64,000 nucleotides of DNA, from positions 1 through 64,000 of the forward strand of contig JAUNBF010000010.1 in NCBI GenBank assembly GCA_030527185.1, given 5' to 3'. The notes under the pieces are model-generated. The model had not been told where the DNA came from. It did no database searches and saw only the letters and a program-made list of their open reading frames with translations. This document shows positions 563 to 53,676 of this stretch, piece after piece (positions within the stretch are counted from its first letter, which is position 1; each line of letters opens with the position of its first letter). Source of the DNA: Planctomycetia bacterium (GTDB lineage Bacteria > Planctomycetota > Planctomycetia > Pirellulales > Thermoguttaceae). A program made the translations under genes and the position numbers.

Positions 563-591
563 TTGACATTCTAAAATTTCGTAAGTATAAT
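563..591 (+). promoter_or_regulatory. Consensus housekeeping promoter
   Basis: TTGACA (563-568), a 17-base spacer and TATAAT (586-591): a perfect match to the sigma-70 consensus. It lies about 65 bases upstream of the PEP-CTERM gene at 657, inside the cassette rather than in the flanking repeat. Confidence 0.85.
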
Positions 592-656
592 AAAATTTCA
601 GGAAAATAATGTAAGCGTTTTTCTGTTCGTTGAACCAAAAGAAGAAGGAGTGTGTG

Positions 657-1996
657 ATGAAAATGAAAACCTCGGTATTGTTTGTTCTGGCGATGTTAAT
701 TTATGCAGGGGGGGGGGGATAGGAAGTCTTTATGGCGCTGACAAGACTTGGAATGGAAATGATGGAAATTGGACGGATGCTAATTCCTGGAATCCTACAG
801 GGATACCGGGAGCGGAAGATGATGCTTATATCTCATCGGGAACGGTTACTTCTGATTCCCTTACTCTGAATGTAAAATCTGTGACTATTTCTGGTGGAAA
901 GCTTCTTTTGCCTACCTCTGATAATGTCAACTATACGTCGGGAACTTGGAATATTTCTGGTGGAACGGTAGGTTCGACGGACAAAAATCTTTATTTTGGA
1001 AATTCTACCATTACCATGACAAATGGGAATATCGACGCAGATCAATTTCGTCCTACAAGTTCGGGGACGGGTAGTATGGATCATTCTGGTGGAGTGGTGA
1101 CGACGCAGTCCTGGATGGCGGTTGGAGAACTGGCAGGAGCGGAGGGAACCTACACACTTTCTGGAGAGGGGACGTTAAATCAGGGATTGAGTCTGGGCCA
1201 TAACGCTTTTGTTTTAGGTGGATATGGGACGGGAACGCTGAAAATGACAGGAGGAGAGATGAACCTCTCTGGCAACCACGGAGGGTATTCGGCAATTTTG
1301 GGCTACCACGGCACTGGAATAGGGTATGCGTATGTGTCGGGCGGAACCATAACTTCCAAAAATGGTATCCTGTTAGGGTTTAGCAGTACCCTGAGCAGTT
1401 CCTTCAAGCAAAGTGGCGGCACGGTCAAGGTCGAGAACGGGGAGATTTACATCAAAGCCAATAATTCGTATCTGTTGGAAGGTGGGACGCTTTCTGTGCC
1501 GAAAATTACGAATAATGGCACGTTCTCCATGACAGGTGGAACGTTGAATGTGGCGGAAACGAATTTCGCGCTGAATCAGGGTGGTGGGAATTTGTCGCCG
1601 GGTGGAGATGGCATTGTAGGAAATTCGAAACTATTGGGACTGGAAGTGACGGCGGGAAAATGGACGCTCGATTTTACGGAAAACTCCATGGATATGATCG
1701 AAATTGGTACGGGCGGGTTGGTGATTACCAGTTTGGAAGAGATTTTGTTGGTGGGGAACGAGTTGGCGGAAGAGCCATTATCGTTTTTAACGTTTACCGA
1801 GACGAAAACGGAAGGTTTGGCGGAAACGCTCAGTTCTCTGTTGAAAGGGACGATGGCCTCTTATTATCATGTGATAGACACTGTCGAAGGCTATGCTCTG
1901 GCTGTGAATTCGACCGATGTGCCGGAACCGTCGAGTTGGTTATTACTTCTGGCGGGGTTGGGATGTTGTTTCGCATGGCGGCGAAAGAGAGGGTGA
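657..1996 (+). CDS. PEP-CTERM beta-repeat surface protein, frameshifted in a G11 tract
   Basis: Predicted exported protein of about 447 residues. The ATG at 657 has a good ribosome site (AAGAAGGAG, 6 bases upstream) and starts a signal peptide, MKMKTSVLFVLAMLIYAGG. In that frame a TAG at 720 ends translation after 21 codons. The long downstream frame (GSLYGADKTW onward to 1996) is one base out of step. The switch point is a run of eleven G at 708-718; nine or twelve G would join both parts. The open frame alone would need a GTG at 650 that overlaps the ribosome site and gives no signal peptide. The body has repeated SGGT/TGGT beta-helix motifs, and the C-terminus (VPEPSSWLLLLAG, then WRRKRG) is a PEP-CTERM sorting signal. 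The lipoprotein gene starts two bases after the stop. The break may be phase variation or a base-calling error in the homopolymer. Confidence 0.85.
708..718 (+). repeat. Mononucleotide tract G11
   Basis: Eleven consecutive G inside the signal-peptide codons of the PEP-CTERM gene at 657. The count puts the rest of the gene out of frame. Such tracts are typical sites of slipped-strand change and of sequencing error. Confidence 0.95.
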
Positions 1997-1997
1997 A

Positions 1998-2405
1998 ATG
2001 ACGCGATTTTTGCAAGTTCTCTGTTTCGTGTTGTTGGCTGGATGTGACAAACCGCAAGCCAATGGTCCGACGGTGATTTGGGAGGGGACGGTAACGATTC
2101 AGGGAGAGTCTTTGCCAGAAAATTTGAAGGAGGCATATATTCAGGTGCGTCCCGCCAACGCTCGAAAAACAGGCCAGGCCAGTCCGACACAAGCGACTAT
2201 CCAGAATGGAAAATATCGTTTGGAGCAGGTACCGCGTGGGGATGTGACGGTCTATTTCGTGCTGAATCAGTTTACCGGCAAGAAAATCCAGGAACGGGAG
2301 GGGCTGGAATATGACGAGACGCGGAATCTTGTCCCGAAGTCGAAACGAGGGGGGATTTCTCTCAAGGCCACGGAAAATCATCGGGAACAAAATTTTGACC
2401 TTTAA
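1998..2405 (+). CDS. Small lipoprotein, carboxypeptidase-regulatory-like fold
   Basis: 135 residues. The ATG at 1998 is one base after the stop of the PEP-CTERM gene, which suggests translational coupling. The N-terminus MTRFLQVLCFVLLAGCDK is a lipoprotein signal peptide with lipobox LAGC, so Cys16 should be lipidated. The body (VIWEGTVTIQGESLP, then a GKYRLEQVPRGDVTVYF stretch) resembles the small beta-sandwich 'carboxypeptidase regulatory-like' proteins that in planctomycetes are very often found beside DUF1559 genes. Function is not known. The DUF1559 gene follows 16 bases later, so the three genes probably form one operon from the promoter at 563. Confidence 0.8.
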   Translation: MTRFLQVLCFVLLAGCDKPQANGPTVIWEGTVTIQGESLPENLKEAYIQVRPANARKTGQASPTQATIQNGKYRLEQVPRGDVTVYFVLNQFTGKKIQEREGLEYDETRNLVPKSKRGGISLKATENHREQNFDL

Positions 2406-2421
2406 CGAAAGGAGGAATATC

Positions 2422-3381
2422 ATGAAACGTGCCGGGTTTACGTTGGTAGAATTACTCGTCGTGATTGCGATTATCGGGATGTTGGTGGGATTGTTGCTGC
2501 CAGCCGTGCAACAGGCTCGCAGTGCCGCGCGACGGATGAGCTGTGCAAACAATCTGCGGCAATTGGGGCTGGCCATGCTGAATTACGAGTCGAACAACCG
2601 TGGTTTTCCGATTGGTATGTATACTTTTGCTGGAGACGACATCTCGATACGGGGTGGAGAACATTGGCGGAACGACCATTGCTGGTACTCCCAGATGGGA
2701 CCGTACATCGAACAGATGGCATGGTATCAAATGATGGATTTCAACCTTTCTTTTTCTCACAAGAACAATCTTGAGCCACGCCGTATCAAAATCCCGACGT
2801 TTGCCTGCCCGGAAGATATTGGCTTGACGGAGAACGAGTGGAATTCGGTAACGTGGGCCAGAGTGCGGCATAATTACGTCGTCAATTGGGGAAATACGGA
2901 TTATTCTCAAAAAGAGAAGGAGGGGGTGGCTTTTCGAGGTGCCCCGTTTCAACCGAGAGAAAAAACCGCCCTTTCCGTCGTGAAAGATGGTTTGAGCAAT
3001 ACGCTTCTGATGAGTGAAGTCCGAATCATTCCCCATAACGGTGATGGTTGGGGCGGTTCGATTTCCGACGGATCCATTTCGCTGGGCTGCGCGTTTACTG
3101 GCTGGAATCCGCCGAATTCAGGAATTGCCGACGAAACATGGCAGGGTTGCCTTAATAATGCTGATTACCCCGCGATGGGAATTCCCATACCGATCAGCGT
3201 TCTCACCGAAGTTCAAGTCATTGTCGCCCGAAGCCACCATACCGGTGGTGTCAATCGAGTCCACTGCGACGGTTCAGCAGACTTTGCCAGTAACAGTATT
3301 GACGCGGCGATCTGGCGTGCCATGTCCACGGCGTGGGGTGGAACGGAGGAACTCGAAGAAACCACCCCCCTCAACCATTAA
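2422..3381 (+). CDS. DUF1559 prepilin-like exported protein
   Basis: 319 residues, ATG at 2422 behind an AAAGGAGG ribosome site. The N-terminus MKR-AGFTLVELLVVIAIIG is a type IV pilin/pseudopilin leader: prepilin peptidase would cut after Gly5 and the following hydrophobic helix anchors the protein. A long soluble DUF1559 domain follows, and near the C-terminus a His-X9-Asp-Gly motif (HTGGVNRVHCDG), the family hallmark. The family is greatly expanded in planctomycetes; its role is not settled, though pseudopilin or surface-fibre functions fit the leader. It ends 18 bases before the convergent KAS III-like gene, at the inner edge of the right repeat copy. Confidence 0.92.
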   Translation: MKRAGFTLVELLVVIAIIGMLVGLLLPAVQQARSAARRMSCANNLRQLGLAMLNYESNNRGFPIGMYTFAGDDISIRGGEHWRNDHCWYSQMGPYIEQMAWYQMMDFNLSFSHKNNLEPRRIKIPTFACPEDIGLTENEWNSVTWARVRHNYVVNWGNTDYSQKEKEGVAFRGAPFQPREKTALSVVKDGLSNTLLMSEVRIIPHNGDGWGGSISDGSISLGCAFTGWNPPNSGIADETWQGCLNNADYPAMGIPIPISVLTEVQVIVARSHHTGGVNRVHCDGSADFASNSIDAAIWRAMSTAWGGTEELEETTPLNH

Positions 3382-3398
3382 TCATTAACTCATGAATC

Positions 3399-3685
3399 AT
3401 TATCGCTCCAGTCCCAGCATGACGGAGTTGATTCCAGAGCCGATGCCCAGAAGGGCTATTTTATCGTGCGGCTGGCAGATGCCTTGTTCCAGGCCGATGG
3501 AGAGAGCGGTGGGAAGTGCGCAGGAGCCGGTGTTGCCGGTGTATTCCAGCGTGGAAAAATCCCGCGTGGTGTCGAGTTCCAATTCGTCGTAAAGCCTTTT
3601 TTGATGAGCTTTTCCGACCTGATGGCAGAAAAAACGTCCGATTTCGTCCCGTTGCCAACCACGCTCTGAGAGGAAAATGGGGAAG
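3399..3685. repeat. Long direct repeat, right copy (partner 152-438)
   Basis: Right copy of the 287-bp direct repeat. It is the 3' end of the intact KAS III-like gene, including its stop codon. Confidence 0.9.
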
Positions 3686-4434
3686 AGGGCTTTGGCGGTG
3701 GCGACGCCTTGCAGGAGGAGTTGTTCGGAGTCGGTTTTCATGCTGTCGCCGGTTTGGACGGTTTCGTCACTGCGGCAGAGATGGCAAAACGCGGTATTCG
3801 CAAGGTAATTGCCCCCTGCCAGTCGCCATTGGGTCTGGCTGATTTTACGGTGGGTGAGGAGAATCGCGGCACTCGAAGAGCCAATCGTCAAGGAGGCAAA
3901 AAATGGTTTGATACTTTGACGGGTGAGTGTGGTGTCCTGATTCATCTGCTCGATGGTCGTTTCGAGAAGCGAACGGGAATCTTCCGTCCCGACGACGATT
4001 CCTGCCTCAATCTGTCCCAACTCAATCATGTTGGCAATCTGCAAAGCTCCTGTCAACAACCCCAAACAGGCATTGGAAACGTCGAAAATCTGGCATTCCG
4101 GCGGCAGACCCGCACCATGATGAACACCGCAGGCCGTGGCTGGCTCCAGGTAATCCCGACAGACGGAGCCATGAATCAGGCAACCGATTTTCTCTGCCGG
4201 AAAAGCCGCTTTTTCCAAAATTTTACGAACGGTCTGGATACTCTGCGTGCCGGGGAGCGTTCCTCGTTTCCAGAGTCGACGCTGGCGAATACCGGTCATC
4301 CATTCCAGCCGGCCGGGGGAAAGGTGCAGACGATCGTACACAGGCTGCAACCATTTTTCGATTTCTTCTGTCGTAACGACTTCGGGTGGTAAAATGTGCG
4401 TCACCGCTTCGATACAAACATTTTGATAATTCAT
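3400..4434 (-). CDS. 3-oxoacyl-ACP synthase III-like enzyme
   Basis: 344 residues from the ATG at 4434 (MNYQNVCIEAV). The thiolase-fold condensing enzymes of this family join an acyl-CoA or acyl-ACP to a malonyl unit. The catalytic triad is visible: Cys123 in SNACLG, His271 in CHQVGKAH and Asn301 in YTGNTGSC. It is slightly longer than FabH of fatty acid synthesis (about 320), and nothing around it is a fatty acid cluster, so the substrate is uncertain; it could be FabH itself or a FabH-like enzyme of hydrocarbon or secondary lipid synthesis. The open frame extends further upstream to 4836, but that stretch overlaps uppS on the other strand. It diverges from uppS. Its 3' end is duplicated at 152-438. 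Confidence 0.85.
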   Translation of the reverse strand: MNYQNVCIEAVTHILPPEVVTTEEIEKWLQPVYDRLHLSPGRLEWMTGIRQRRLWKRGTLPGTQSIQTVRKILEKAAFPAEKIGCLIHGSVCRDYLEPATACGVHHGAGLPPECQIFDVSNACLGLLTGALQIANMIELGQIEAGIVVGTEDSRSLLETTIEQMNQDTTLTRQSIKPFFASLTIGSSSAAILLTHRKISQTQWRLAGGNYLANTAFCHLCRSDETVQTGDSMKTDSEQLLLQGVATAKALFPIFLSERGWQRDEIGRFFCHQVGKAHQKRLYDELELDTTRDFSTLEYTGNTGSCALPTALSIGLEQGICQPHDKIALLGIGSGINSVMLGLER

Positions 4435-4560
4435 ACAGGATTCCCTCGATTTCTGGGAAATTACCAACGGAAACTGTTTATTATGTCCATTTTGAAAATT
4501 TTTGCAAGGGATGGATTCCCGTTTTTTACGAATCTGGTAGAATGAGAGAGGAACTGGGGA

Positions 4561-5301
4561 ATGTTGACGCGATTGAAAGAGAGGAGAAAAAATTTGGGAA
4601 ATCCACTGGAACATATTGCCATTATTATGGATGGAAACGGACGGTGGGCCAGGGAACGTGGCTGGGTGCGTGCGGAAGGACACCGCCAGGGTGCCAAAAC
4701 GGTCCGAAAAATTGTCGAAGAATCGGTACGAATCGGGCTGAAACAATTGACGCTCTACTGTTTTTCTCATGAAAACTGGAAACGTCCGCAGGATGAATTG
4801 CAGGCTCTGATGTTGTTGCTGGAGAATTTCATGCATTCGGAGCGGCCTCGGATGATTCAGGAAAATATTCGGCTGAAAGTGATTGGTCGACGGGAAGGGA
4901 TTCCTGAGTCGGCATTGCGGGAAATGGAAGAATCAATCCGTCAGACGGCCAATAATTCCGGTTTGACGCTCTGTTTGGCGATCAATTACGGCGGTCGGCA
5001 GGAAATTGTGGATGCGACGAAACAGATTGCTCAAAAAATGGTGACGGGGGAATATTCGCCGGACGCGGTGGATGAAACGTTGATTTCCCAGCATCTTTAC
5101 ACGGCAGATTGCCCTGATCCCGATTTACTCATTCGGACGGCAGGGGAAATGCGGTTGAGTAATTTTCTACTTTGGCAACTGAGTTACGCGGAACTGTGGG
5201 TGACGGAAAAATATTGGCCGGACTTTGAAATCGAAGATTTTCACGCAGCCATGGAGGATTTTCGACATCGGGAACGACGCTACGGCGCGGTCACAACATG
5301 A
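4561..5301 (+). CDS. uppS: Isoprenyl transferase (undecaprenyl diphosphate synthase)
   Basis: 246 residues, normal for the family. Cis-prenyltransferase that extends farnesyl diphosphate with isopentenyl diphosphate to make the C55 lipid carrier for wall and surface polysaccharide synthesis. Family motifs are clear: IIMDGNGRWA with catalytic Asp24, HRQGAK, YCFSHENWKRP, and the C-terminal LLIRTAGEMRLSNFLLWQ, where Ala replaces the usual Ser of RTSGE. It is followed 16 bases later by the dehydrogenase gene. A DUF368 lipid-carrier transporter is encoded elsewhere in the window (39822-40742). Confidence 0.95.
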   Translation: MLTRLKERRKNLGNPLEHIAIIMDGNGRWARERGWVRAEGHRQGAKTVRKIVEESVRIGLKQLTLYCFSHENWKRPQDELQALMLLLENFMHSERPRMIQENIRLKVIGRREGIPESALREMEESIRQTANNSGLTLCLAINYGGRQEIVDATKQIAQKMVTGEYSPDAVDETLISQHLYTADCPDPDLLIRTAGEMRLSNFLLWQLSYAELWVTEKYWPDFEIEDFHAAMEDFRHRERRYGAVTT

Positions 5302-23851: not shown

Positions 23852-23966
23852 CTATTTTACCCCCCCCCCCCAGCTTTTCCTGTTTTGACTTTCAATAACG
23901 AGAACGCTTTTTTCCAGATGAAAAAAGTGGGGGGGGCTTTGTGGGGTAAAAAAATAGTCTTTTTTT
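23852..23966 (+). promoter_or_regulatory. Putative attenuator hairpin with C12/G8 tracts
   Basis: The left arm CTATTTTACCCC with twelve C (23860-23871) can pair with the right arm: eight G at 23929-23936 and GGGGTAAAAAAATAG at 23943-23957. Seven T follow at 23960-23966, as in a factor-independent terminator. Just before, a short frame at 23848-23889 would encode MAILPPPPQLFLF, its four prolines made by the C tract. The structure lies between the promoter at 23777 and the gene at 24085. Function is inferred. Confidence 0.45.
23860..23871 (+). repeat. Mononucleotide tract C12
   Basis: Twelve consecutive C in the leader of the PEP-CTERM repeat protein at 24085. Matching runs of G (eight at 23929-23936) lie 57 bases downstream. 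Confidence 0.95.
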
Positions 23967-27000: not shown

Positions 27001-27099
27001 GCAACCGTCGGTTCCACCGCCGTTCCAGAGCCGGGAACCTGGTGTTTGCTCCTGTTGGGAATGGCGTGGTTACTGCGTCGGCGATATTCCCGAAAATAA
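24085..27099 (+). CDS. Autotransporter-like beta-strand-repeat protein with PEP-CTERM anchor
   Basis: 1004 residues, ATG at 24085 after AGGAG. The N-terminus has an export signal with a hydrophobic core (WSCAVILGMVVAVLLG) ending near LSAA. The chain is made of autotransporter-associated beta-strand repeats: for example VKSGDGELVLTNKSSYTGG and TTVKEGTLTL near residue 270-295, and again VKSGAGEVILGAKGTYTGG and TEVREGTLTL near 650-680, so a right-handed beta-helix is expected. It ends VPEPGTWCLLLLGMAWLLR plus a basic tail, the PEP-CTERM signal cut by an exosortase. There is no beta-barrel domain, so it is not a true autotransporter. Probably a surface or extracellular matrix protein; binding partner unknown. 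The leader carries the C12 tract. Confidence 0.88.
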   Translation: MSEIRSIFCQNAWKKGFQGWSCAVILGMVVAVLLGENLSAAIYTVNTAANYSSLSPTPQTGDSIQLNAALTIDSANPLADIQTSGSASLLFSTGSLVVGNITQGSHMPLNTNANTVTLSGNIVQPSIVGDLITLAKQGTGTLILTGNNNGMAGRFRISEGNIQLGDGTTNPTFANLQYFHLQEGTNLVFNVQSSADNPYIHTTTTTYNTLNDYTVRTGAKIQIANGYVQWQAGATDVDIQVDAGKTLDWNVATEGTTETFGKSISGEGAFVKSGDGELVLTNKSSYTGGTTVKEGTLTLKPTSGTVLPGYTNSEGTRVQYPVTVEEGATLNVATNGAFGNNQECPSLLTLNGGTLRNSSAAHITVGNITMNNGTLISNTTSTTDYGNFILDARVVASGTNNLIQANSLTAGFRLSSGIDVGENASLTIDAVIQQTSTGTAPSKIITKTGVGDLIFTKANTYEPGTVIQAGRLILREEGTLGTGDVTIAYLGALQLENGETLANNMKLTGGGTTFVPDVQNPEDGRNSGVIYFRKSAELTGTLTSTDAVGIRVANGETGTISGNFSHQPTELAIQPFAKYGLGTLILSGENNSLTGDVRVYAGTLQTNAKSLSQANQIMVDADSMLNLNVAGNISETLNKVVTGAGTLVKSGAGEVILGAKGTYTGGTEVREGTLTLTHTANNMGTLPTLQPVTVYQDAVLKVSVNGAMGHASHFPSAITLYGGTLLNASTSHITTTATNLHGATLRGNGTASTSEYGDFLIDNTMTVDVLYDADGNVVERVSKIENGSISIRFVNNQNGKITVKEGATLEVNADIVQAPQSTALPVTKDGMGKILFGGNVNHAVQVTEGSVEMTPTSVFEQPLTIETGVEAMLGGTSNRLLSMDGLWLGQEGYTLKVNSGDLILGDDLKLALPTEDVYSGLSLDIFSLGDDASLKDASGELLDPEAFDWERLLSSDAMRQLWNLGFEDGTLTATVGSTAVPEPGTWCLLLLGMAWLLRRRYSRK

Positions 27100-52512: not shown

Positions 52513-53676
52513 TTACTCAAATGGTTTGGACGAAGCGGGACGACCGTCCGCACGACACCCCTTGGCATAATGAACTTCTGAATCAATACTGTAACTCAGC
52601 CGATGAACCGACCCGTCCGCCATGGCCATCCCCATGGCACCGGCATGACAACTCCCAAAACGATTGCTGTAGGTGTCCTCCGAAACACCATCCCGATCCT
52701 GCATCGGCATAAACGGAGCATCGGCCTGCGTAAAAACTCCCGAAGCGTTGTACGTCCCCGTATAGCAGGTTCGCAGATTGTCCCGATCCCCCCCGCAAAA
52801 CGGACTGTAATCGTCTGCCGAGGTATTCGACGTGTCCTCATAGTACGCTGGTACCGCAAATTTTTCCCCCACCAGATACGTATTCGAAGCCCCATCCCGA
52901 ATCTGCCCCATCGTCACCCGCGACATGTAAAACAGAATCCCCGTATTCTTCGACGAATAGTCCGGCCAACGATTGTTCTGGGCGTACTCCTTCAGTTCCG
53001 AAACACTCGGAAGTTGATGACGCGGACACATATTGGCGAAATTCCAGCCCGTGACCCCTTCCGTACAATGCCCGCAATTCCCCGCGTAATCCGTCTTGTT
53101 GCACGGGTTCGAGGATTTGAGAGCAAAATTATTCATGGTACGATCCTTCGTCGGGTACGTCTTCACCGACCGACGCGACGGACAATGGAATACCGAAAGT
53201 GGCGTGGAAAGTAACGTCAACATGCCCGAATTGGAGGGATCCGCCTTCTGATCTGCCGTGGAACCGTCCGCCGGAAGCTGGTACAACGCGTTTTGTTCCA
53301 GCATGGGAAGAATCGCGTACATCCACGAACCTGGCTGTTTGTAACCCAGCCCATTCTCGGGATCGCCACTCCAACTATATCCAAAACCACCGTTGGGAAA
53401 AGAGCGAGTGGAACTTTCCACGTTCAGAATAGCCAACGCAAGATTCCGAAGATTGTTGTTGCACTGCATCTGTCGGGCAGCCTCTCGCGCCTGCTGAACT
53501 GCCGGCAAAAGAAGCCCCACCAACATCCCAATAATCGCAATCACAACCAGCAACTCGACAAGTGTAAAGCCTACACGAGCAGGTGAACCCAGGGATTCAG
53601 ATTTTTTCAGAAAGTGCCTGGAAGAACGAGAGAAAACAAGAAATAGAGGGTTATCCACCCCCCCCCCGTTACGCAT
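52513..53676 (-). CDS. DUF1559 prepilin-like protein with G10 tract at its start
   Basis: 387 residues if started at the ATG 53676. The prepilin leader is long: cleavage is expected after Gly36 in RVGFTLVELLVVIAIIG, where most DUF1559 proteins have only 5-15 residues before the site. The C-terminal H-X9-DG motif is present (CHAGAMGMAMADGSV). Codons 4-6 are three GGG from a run of ten G (coding strand, 53658-53667), so a change in tract length would put the rest out of frame. No other in-frame ATG exists before the hydrophobic segment; the ribosome site GGAAGG is 15 bases from the ATG, rather far. First gene of the operon with the PEP-CTERM, GDPD and FNT genes, from the promoter at 53788. Confidence 0.88.
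   Translation of the reverse strand: MRNGGGVDNPLFLVFSRSSRHFLKKSESLGSPARVGFTLVELLVVIAIIGMLVGLLLPAVQQAREAARQMQCNNNLRNLALAILNVESSTRSFPNGGFGYSWSGDPENGLGYKQPGSWMYAILPMLEQNALYQLPADGSTADQKADPSNSGMLTLLSTPLSVFHCPSRRSVKTYPTKDRTMNNFALKSSNPCNKTDYAGNCGHCTEGVTGWNFANMCPRHQLPSVSELKEYAQNNRWPDYSSKNTGILFYMSRVTMGQIRDGASNTYLVGEKFAVPAYYEDTSNTSADDYSPFCGGDRDNLRTCYTGTYNASGVFTQADAPFMPMQDRDGVSEDTYSNRFGSCHAGAMGMAMADGSVHRLSYSIDSEVHYAKGCRADGRPASSKPFE
53658..53667 (-). repeat. Mononucleotide tract G10 (C10 on the plus strand)
   Basis: Ten G within codons 4-7 of the DUF1559 gene at 52513-53676. In its present length the gene is in frame. Confidence 0.95.

Follow-up and report, generated by a model that had tools for sequence, protein, structure and literature searches.

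The gene at positions 657–1996 of the analyzed window, a stretch of 64,000 nucleotides from a Planctomycetia bacterium, very probably carries a translational phase-variation switch. The proposed switch is a run of eleven G residues that leaves the gene in the OFF state in the assembly; the genome contains about 149 such tracts in all, many of which would act on the repertoire of exported PEP-CTERM and DUF1559 prepilin proteins. Slipped-strand mispairing at replication would alter the run by one G per event, and such a change would link the reading frame of the mature PEP-CTERM protein to its start codon and export signal or uncouple it from them. The assembled gene would thus be OFF, with translation ending before the mature protein is reached; switching would presumably be reversible, and the in-frame product would be expressed and located at the cell surface. 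In other genes the tract would act as the spacer of a sigma70 promoter instead of as a leader tract, and many tracts sit within a common DNA element, TGTTAA/TTGACA-N19-ATAGG. What could be read directly from the assemblies is where the tracts lie, their frame and number, the class of genes they target, their conserved flanks and how related copies differ in length and frame.

Frame change in the window gene

A first-pass annotation of this DNA had placed the leader and the mature body of the gene in different frames, with the change inside the G11 run, and both sequence and translation agree with it to the base (Table 1). Translation from ATG 657 yields MKMKTSVLFVLAMLIYAGGGG and halts at codon 22, as had been claimed, and the body (IGSLYGADKTW...) comprises 425 open codons in another frame, up to position 1996. 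In the assembled state the signal-like leader therefore lies directly upstream of the body and out of frame with it, and an in-frame state would join both. The annotation's further proposal, that nine or twelve G would restore the frame, is borne out by arithmetic (run +1 or −2). It had also favored ATG 657, and this does appear a likelier start than the in-frame GTG at 650, from which no signal peptide would result and which lies partly within the Shine-Dalgarno sequence. At the end of the body the PF07589 profile scored 33.2 bits against a cut-off of 20.7, and the C-terminus presents the PEP motif, hydrophobic stretch and basic end expected for PEP-CTERM sorting. The closest paralogue of the gene also contains an intragenic G11, and its frame is broken there too. 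A megablast comparison of the window gene with phages returned no match.

Table 1. Coordinates of the window gene, its putative control elements and other features of the window.
Feature	Position	Strand	Basis or remark
sigma70-type promoter TTGACA-N17-TATAAT	563–591	+	sequence; regex match, 17-nt spacer; upstream of PEP-CTERM gene
Shine-Dalgarno AAGGAG	645–650	+	sequence; ATG 657 begins 6 nt later
OFF-state frame: signal-peptide-like leader, TAG stop at 720–722	657–722	+	translation
29-bp flank motif GTTAA-N19-ATAGG enclosing the tract	695–723	+	T at 694 completes TGTTAA
G11 tract, point of frame change	708–718	+	sequence
Mature surface-protein body, second frame	719–1996	+	ORF
PEP-CTERM sorting signal PF07589	1916–1987	+	profile match
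Short lipoprotein-like ORF (Cys after hydrophobic N-terminus)	1998–2405	+	no family match
DUF1559 (SBP_bac_10) prepilin-like protein, without tract	2422–3381	+	profile match
Second tract, C12 on the + strand	23860–23871	-	about 210 nt before open frame of second PEP-CTERM gene, motif 27019–27084
Third tract, C10 on the + strand	53658–53667	-	between possible leader and DUF1559-type prepilin body (52516–53655, -)

Both additional runs of at least 10 in the window (C12 at 23860 and C10 at 53658) adjoin surface-type genes. A 287-bp direct repeat (152–438 and 3399–3685, 99.7% identical) flanks a block of three genes (PEP-CTERM, lipoprotein-like and DUF1559). The repeat is the 3'-terminal part of a FabH-like gene (ACP_syn_III_C), the full copy of which is found at 3400–4836 on the minus strand, and since this gene end stands on both sides, the block may have been inserted or duplicated recently. 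The idea that tracts are generally bracketed by repeats was considered and rejected: no other tract is so bracketed, and the repeat is unique to the window locus.

Poly-G runs across the genome and their target genes

That the locus belongs to a genome-wide set with conserved flanks was no part of the first-pass annotation. The host genome (G000; 4.29 Mb in 174 contigs) contains 149 G runs of at least 9, counted as 398 G9 windows minus 249 G10 windows. Run lengths were tabulated in 1.78 Mb of this genome, where 65 runs reached at least 9 (8 runs of 9, 17 of 10, 30 of 11, 7 of 12 and 3 of 13). Run counts drop steeply up to length 8 and then climb to a second mode at 11; A/T runs in the same 1.78 Mb showed no second length mode. 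By geometric extrapolation from runs of 3–7 on the + strand of these 1.78 Mb, about 0.6 G and 0.6 C runs of at least 11 are expected, and 13 G and 27 C runs were observed, which excludes a chance origin of the long G runs. The tracts thus combine above-chance frequency with hypermutable length, as in phase variation by simple sequence repeats (SSRs; general data in PMC5084427).

The host genome had the highest number of G10 windows among eight genomes of its genus; some relatives do not lend themselves to a comparison of raw G-run counts, because very long runs in L359 and in G011/G034 contigs (e.g. G74), several of them at contig ends, look like sequencing artefacts. MutS1 (TIGR01070) was not found in the host assembly, which is 91% complete, and is present in 7/7 congeners; MutL is present in the host. 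The missing MutS1 together with the top G10 count would fit relaxed mismatch repair, with the proviso that one genome proves nothing.

The tracts were strongly associated with one class of genes. Among Pfam-defined PEP-CTERM genes with a readable start, 24/35 had a tract close to it (between −250 and +260 relative to the open frame) as opposed to 23/1173 other ORFs of at least 300 codons (Fisher p = 5e-29), a PEP-CTERM fraction that is perhaps somewhat high since the readable sequence was partly picked for its tracts. Overall, the host genome encodes 104 PEP-CTERM matches and one exosortase (PF09721, 163 bits). The 49 long ORFs adjoining a tract include 29 with a terminal PEP-CTERM-like signal and 10 FTLVEL prepilins, DUF1559 prepilins being the second target class; further tract-adjoining genes include an autotransporter and a glycosyltransferase. 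An autotransporter beta-domain (PF03797) with Chlamydia PMP repeats is found behind a G11 in a planctomycete gene (L028, 10000–15123, minus strand). At another locus, two tandem PEP-CTERM genes share a 278-bp leader region (97%; L107, 388–664 and 3172–3447), and both carry C11 and are out of frame.

Two proposed switch designs and related copies

Two arrangements of tract and gene were found, and in both a change of one unit alters either frame or promoter spacing. In the first, to which the window gene belongs, the tract lies in the leader, 12–60 nt downstream of a start codon preceded by a Shine-Dalgarno sequence, and encodes Gly codons in one orientation and Pro codons in the other. Leader tracts have a strong Shine-Dalgarno sequence and start codon upstream, and often a TTGACA-17-TATAAT promoter of their own, some of the start codons having been called by a simple script. 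In the second, the tract lies between the −35 and −10 boxes of sigma70-like promoters of PEP-CTERM genes, with the layout TTGACA, 14–15 nt including G9–11, then TARAAT or TACAAT. Tracts of this promoter type stand 27–116 nt before surface-type genes that have their own signal peptide, mostly PEP-CTERM. In five cases (L025, L027, L037, L092 and L126) the gene that follows after 27–78 nt is a PEP-CTERM gene or a related one, its signal peptide being intact, and in L125 the same promoter form is followed by an ORF only at a distance (+263 nt). Sibling genomes provided further examples: a promoter with a spacer of 17 (G001, L386) and a promoter-type tract before a homologue of the window gene (G005, L165). 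Two other G005 loci (L169 and L171) carry promoter-type G16 and G14 after a common TTGACAAATAC upstream sequence, with spacers of 21 and 19.

In Neisseria promoters of the porA/opc type, a homopolymer between the −35 and −10 boxes likewise serves as spacer, and tract length sets promoter spacing. The spacers found here measure 14–15 in the host genome and 17 in G001, and, unlike in Neisseria, one and the same poly-G element is used in promoter spacers as well as within coding leaders.

One alternative holds that the tracts merely mark pseudogenes of an expanded surface family. Most copies are indeed out of frame in the assembly, but their bodies of 300–1700 codons are open, their PEP-CTERM or prepilin ends, Shine-Dalgarno sequences and promoters are intact, pure tracts are kept across genera, and a second type of switch, the promoter, hits the same gene class. 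We therefore regard dead genes as an extremely improbable explanation.

The frames of the leader tracts are not evenly distributed. Among 43 leader tracts in the host genome, 29 need +1, 9 need +2 and 5 are in frame, the last compared to 14 expected by chance (p = 0.001 for at most 5 of 43 at one third). This OFF bias counts against the phase-variation explanation; contributions to it could come from selection favoring the OFF state, from a side effect of the fixed motif length and from run lengths in the assembly that are systematically off by −1. Homopolymers are error-prone in sequencing, and a base-calling error had been the main alternative in the first-pass annotation. As an isolated error it is contradicted by 149 tracts with common flanks, and what is left of it is a systematic miscount by −1 of long runs, such that the true runs are one longer and most genes are ON. 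The 29/43 leader tracts that need exactly one extra base modulo 3 speak for such a miscount, which would, on the other hand, leave tract number, positions and flanks unchanged.

Related copies bear directly on this question. G016 represents another genus within the same family, and its 17 related prepilin leaders vary in run length: four with G10 are in frame, twelve with G11 need +2 and one with G12 needs +1. Here the modal G11 needs a shift other than +1, and it is the shorter G10 copies that are in frame. Pairs of related copies in sibling genomes differ as well, with G11 in frame and G13 out of frame in G005 (L185 and L187) and G11 in frame and G10 out of frame in G001 (L131 and L139). Overall, length differs in 52/114 homologous tract pairs, most of which, coming from a single G016 family, lack independence; the length variation seen is that between related paralogues. 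An instructive case is a membrane-protein ORF (L065, 7702–8817) that is split mid-gene by G10 and is out of frame at the tract. Its paralogue, about 2.08 kb away, carries the interrupted and hence reliably readable GGAGGGGGGG of equal length. An additional base farther downstream (+1) brings this paralogue back into frame, and it may be read as a locked switch with the frame restored later. These differences between copies make it hard to explain everything by runs that were simply miscounted, and we consider the artefact unlikely.

The same copies bear on programmed frameshifting or transcriptional slippage, whereby the tract would be fixed and the ribosome or RNA polymerase would slip by one, producing some full-length protein. 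The +1 need shared by 29/43 host leaders, the stop codon directly 3' of the tract in many of them and the fixed motif length are in line with this. Programmed −1 frameshifting, however, implies a constant offset and a fixed slippery site in homologues, and here offsets of 0, 1 and 2 occur and lengths vary: 9/43 host leaders need +2 and 5 are in frame, 12/18 in G016 need +2 and 4 are in frame, and close copies differ in tract length. Moreover, copies in the C orientation form poly-Pro codons, which are not of the classic −1 slippery type, and the tract of the promoter class is untranslated. Frameshifting is accordingly quite improbable as a general explanation. Since related copies differ in both tract length and frame, they support slipped-strand phase variation instead. 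The view of the first-pass annotation that the window gene is phase-variable and caught in the OFF state gains from these differences among related leaders, and from the same gene class being repeatedly tract-bearing.

Flank motif and comparison with known systems

Alignment of the tracts revealed a left flank, (A/G)TGTTAAnnT, and a right flank, ATAGG, and the distance from GTTAA to ATAGG is 19 in most tracts. The tract of the window gene occupies the right end of the motif (GTTAATTTATGCA-G11-ATAGG); the more frequent arrangement has the run at the left (GTTAAnnTGC-G10-TARAATAGG), and the total length is identical. Promoter-type tracts share this geometry, except that TTGACA replaces TGTTAA. 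A pattern search with unrestricted gaps on either side of the G run, which does not presuppose the spacing, found 25 places in three genera of one family with spacings of 18 (6), 19 (12), 20 (6) and 21 (1), and the reversed control pattern gave no matches in the same search. The motif, with a spacing of 18–20, was present at 31/65 runs of at least 9 and at 14/2795 control runs of 5–7 (p = 3e-44, an overstated value, because the left and right criteria were set after the data were seen). Since it is found in either orientation with respect to the gene, coding is not by itself a sufficient explanation. A general promoter class was also rejected, as TGTTAA-N19-ATRG was absent from the sample without poly-G at such spacing. 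We know of no common fixed-spacing flank motif described for the poly-G loci of Campylobacter jejuni.

The flanks could be bound by a protein, form a short mobile cassette or result from a constraint that slippage itself imposes. It is possible, if short of probable, that the tracts belong to a dedicated, orientation-independent element of about 29 bp, either a putative protein site setting tract length or mutability or a spreading cassette, which would install switches in surface genes of the family. With respect to empty sites, no close homologue lacking the element had both flanks aligned, except one decayed copy. Viral spread was rejected: pattern matches in IMG/VR look unrelated, and there were no credible viral carriers. 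A motif of about 29 bp with two distinct ends, a uniform center and both orientations would also suit site-specific recombination, in which N-termini would be shuffled at the motif with poly-G as the crossover. However, no clear chimeric junctions were found among 188 tract flanks (unequal leader similarity in the G016 family being ambiguous), no recombinase is linked, and every gene comes with a separate start and, often, a separate promoter. Recombination at the motif is for these reasons very unlikely.

A close parallel is found in the poly-G contingency loci of C. jejuni, which number 18–39 genes, with 81 SSRs in one doylei isolate (PMC6321876). They similarly consist of G runs of about 9–12 within surface-related genes that are turned on and off by frame, mostly at the level of translation. 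In contrast to these 18–39 genes, 149 G runs are found here, and the targets are PEP-CTERM and prepilin proteins themselves rather than mainly surface-modifying enzymes (PMC6321876). Akkermansia muciniphila is a PEP-CTERM/exosortase organism in which long homopolymers were suggested to phase-vary; the excerpted source (PMC3048395) gives 17 genes with tracts longer than 8 bp, with capsule genes as the named examples, and 21 PEP-CTERM proteins, and within that excerpt the tracts are not tied to the PEP-CTERM proteins, unlike here. Phase variation next to PEP-CTERM genes has likewise been described for invertons of gut bacteria, but by DNA inversion between repeats and not by homopolymer length (PMC11892184). 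Our literature search brought up no relevant link of planctomycetes or DUF1559 to homopolymer phase variation, no description of the scale, target class or conserved fixed-length flanks, and no explanation of the flank motif.

Homopolymer phase variation is best known from pathogens and usually involves a few dozen genes. The mechanism proposed here is a familiar one, on an unusually large scale and linked to a sequence motif. In this uncultured planctomycete, poly-G switches appear to control about two thirds of the PEP-CTERM proteins tested, together with some prepilins, and most are OFF in the assembly. Individual cells could therefore display differing combinations of surface proteins, and, if the flank motif is a real element, the creation and upkeep of hypermutable tracts at chosen sites would become testable.
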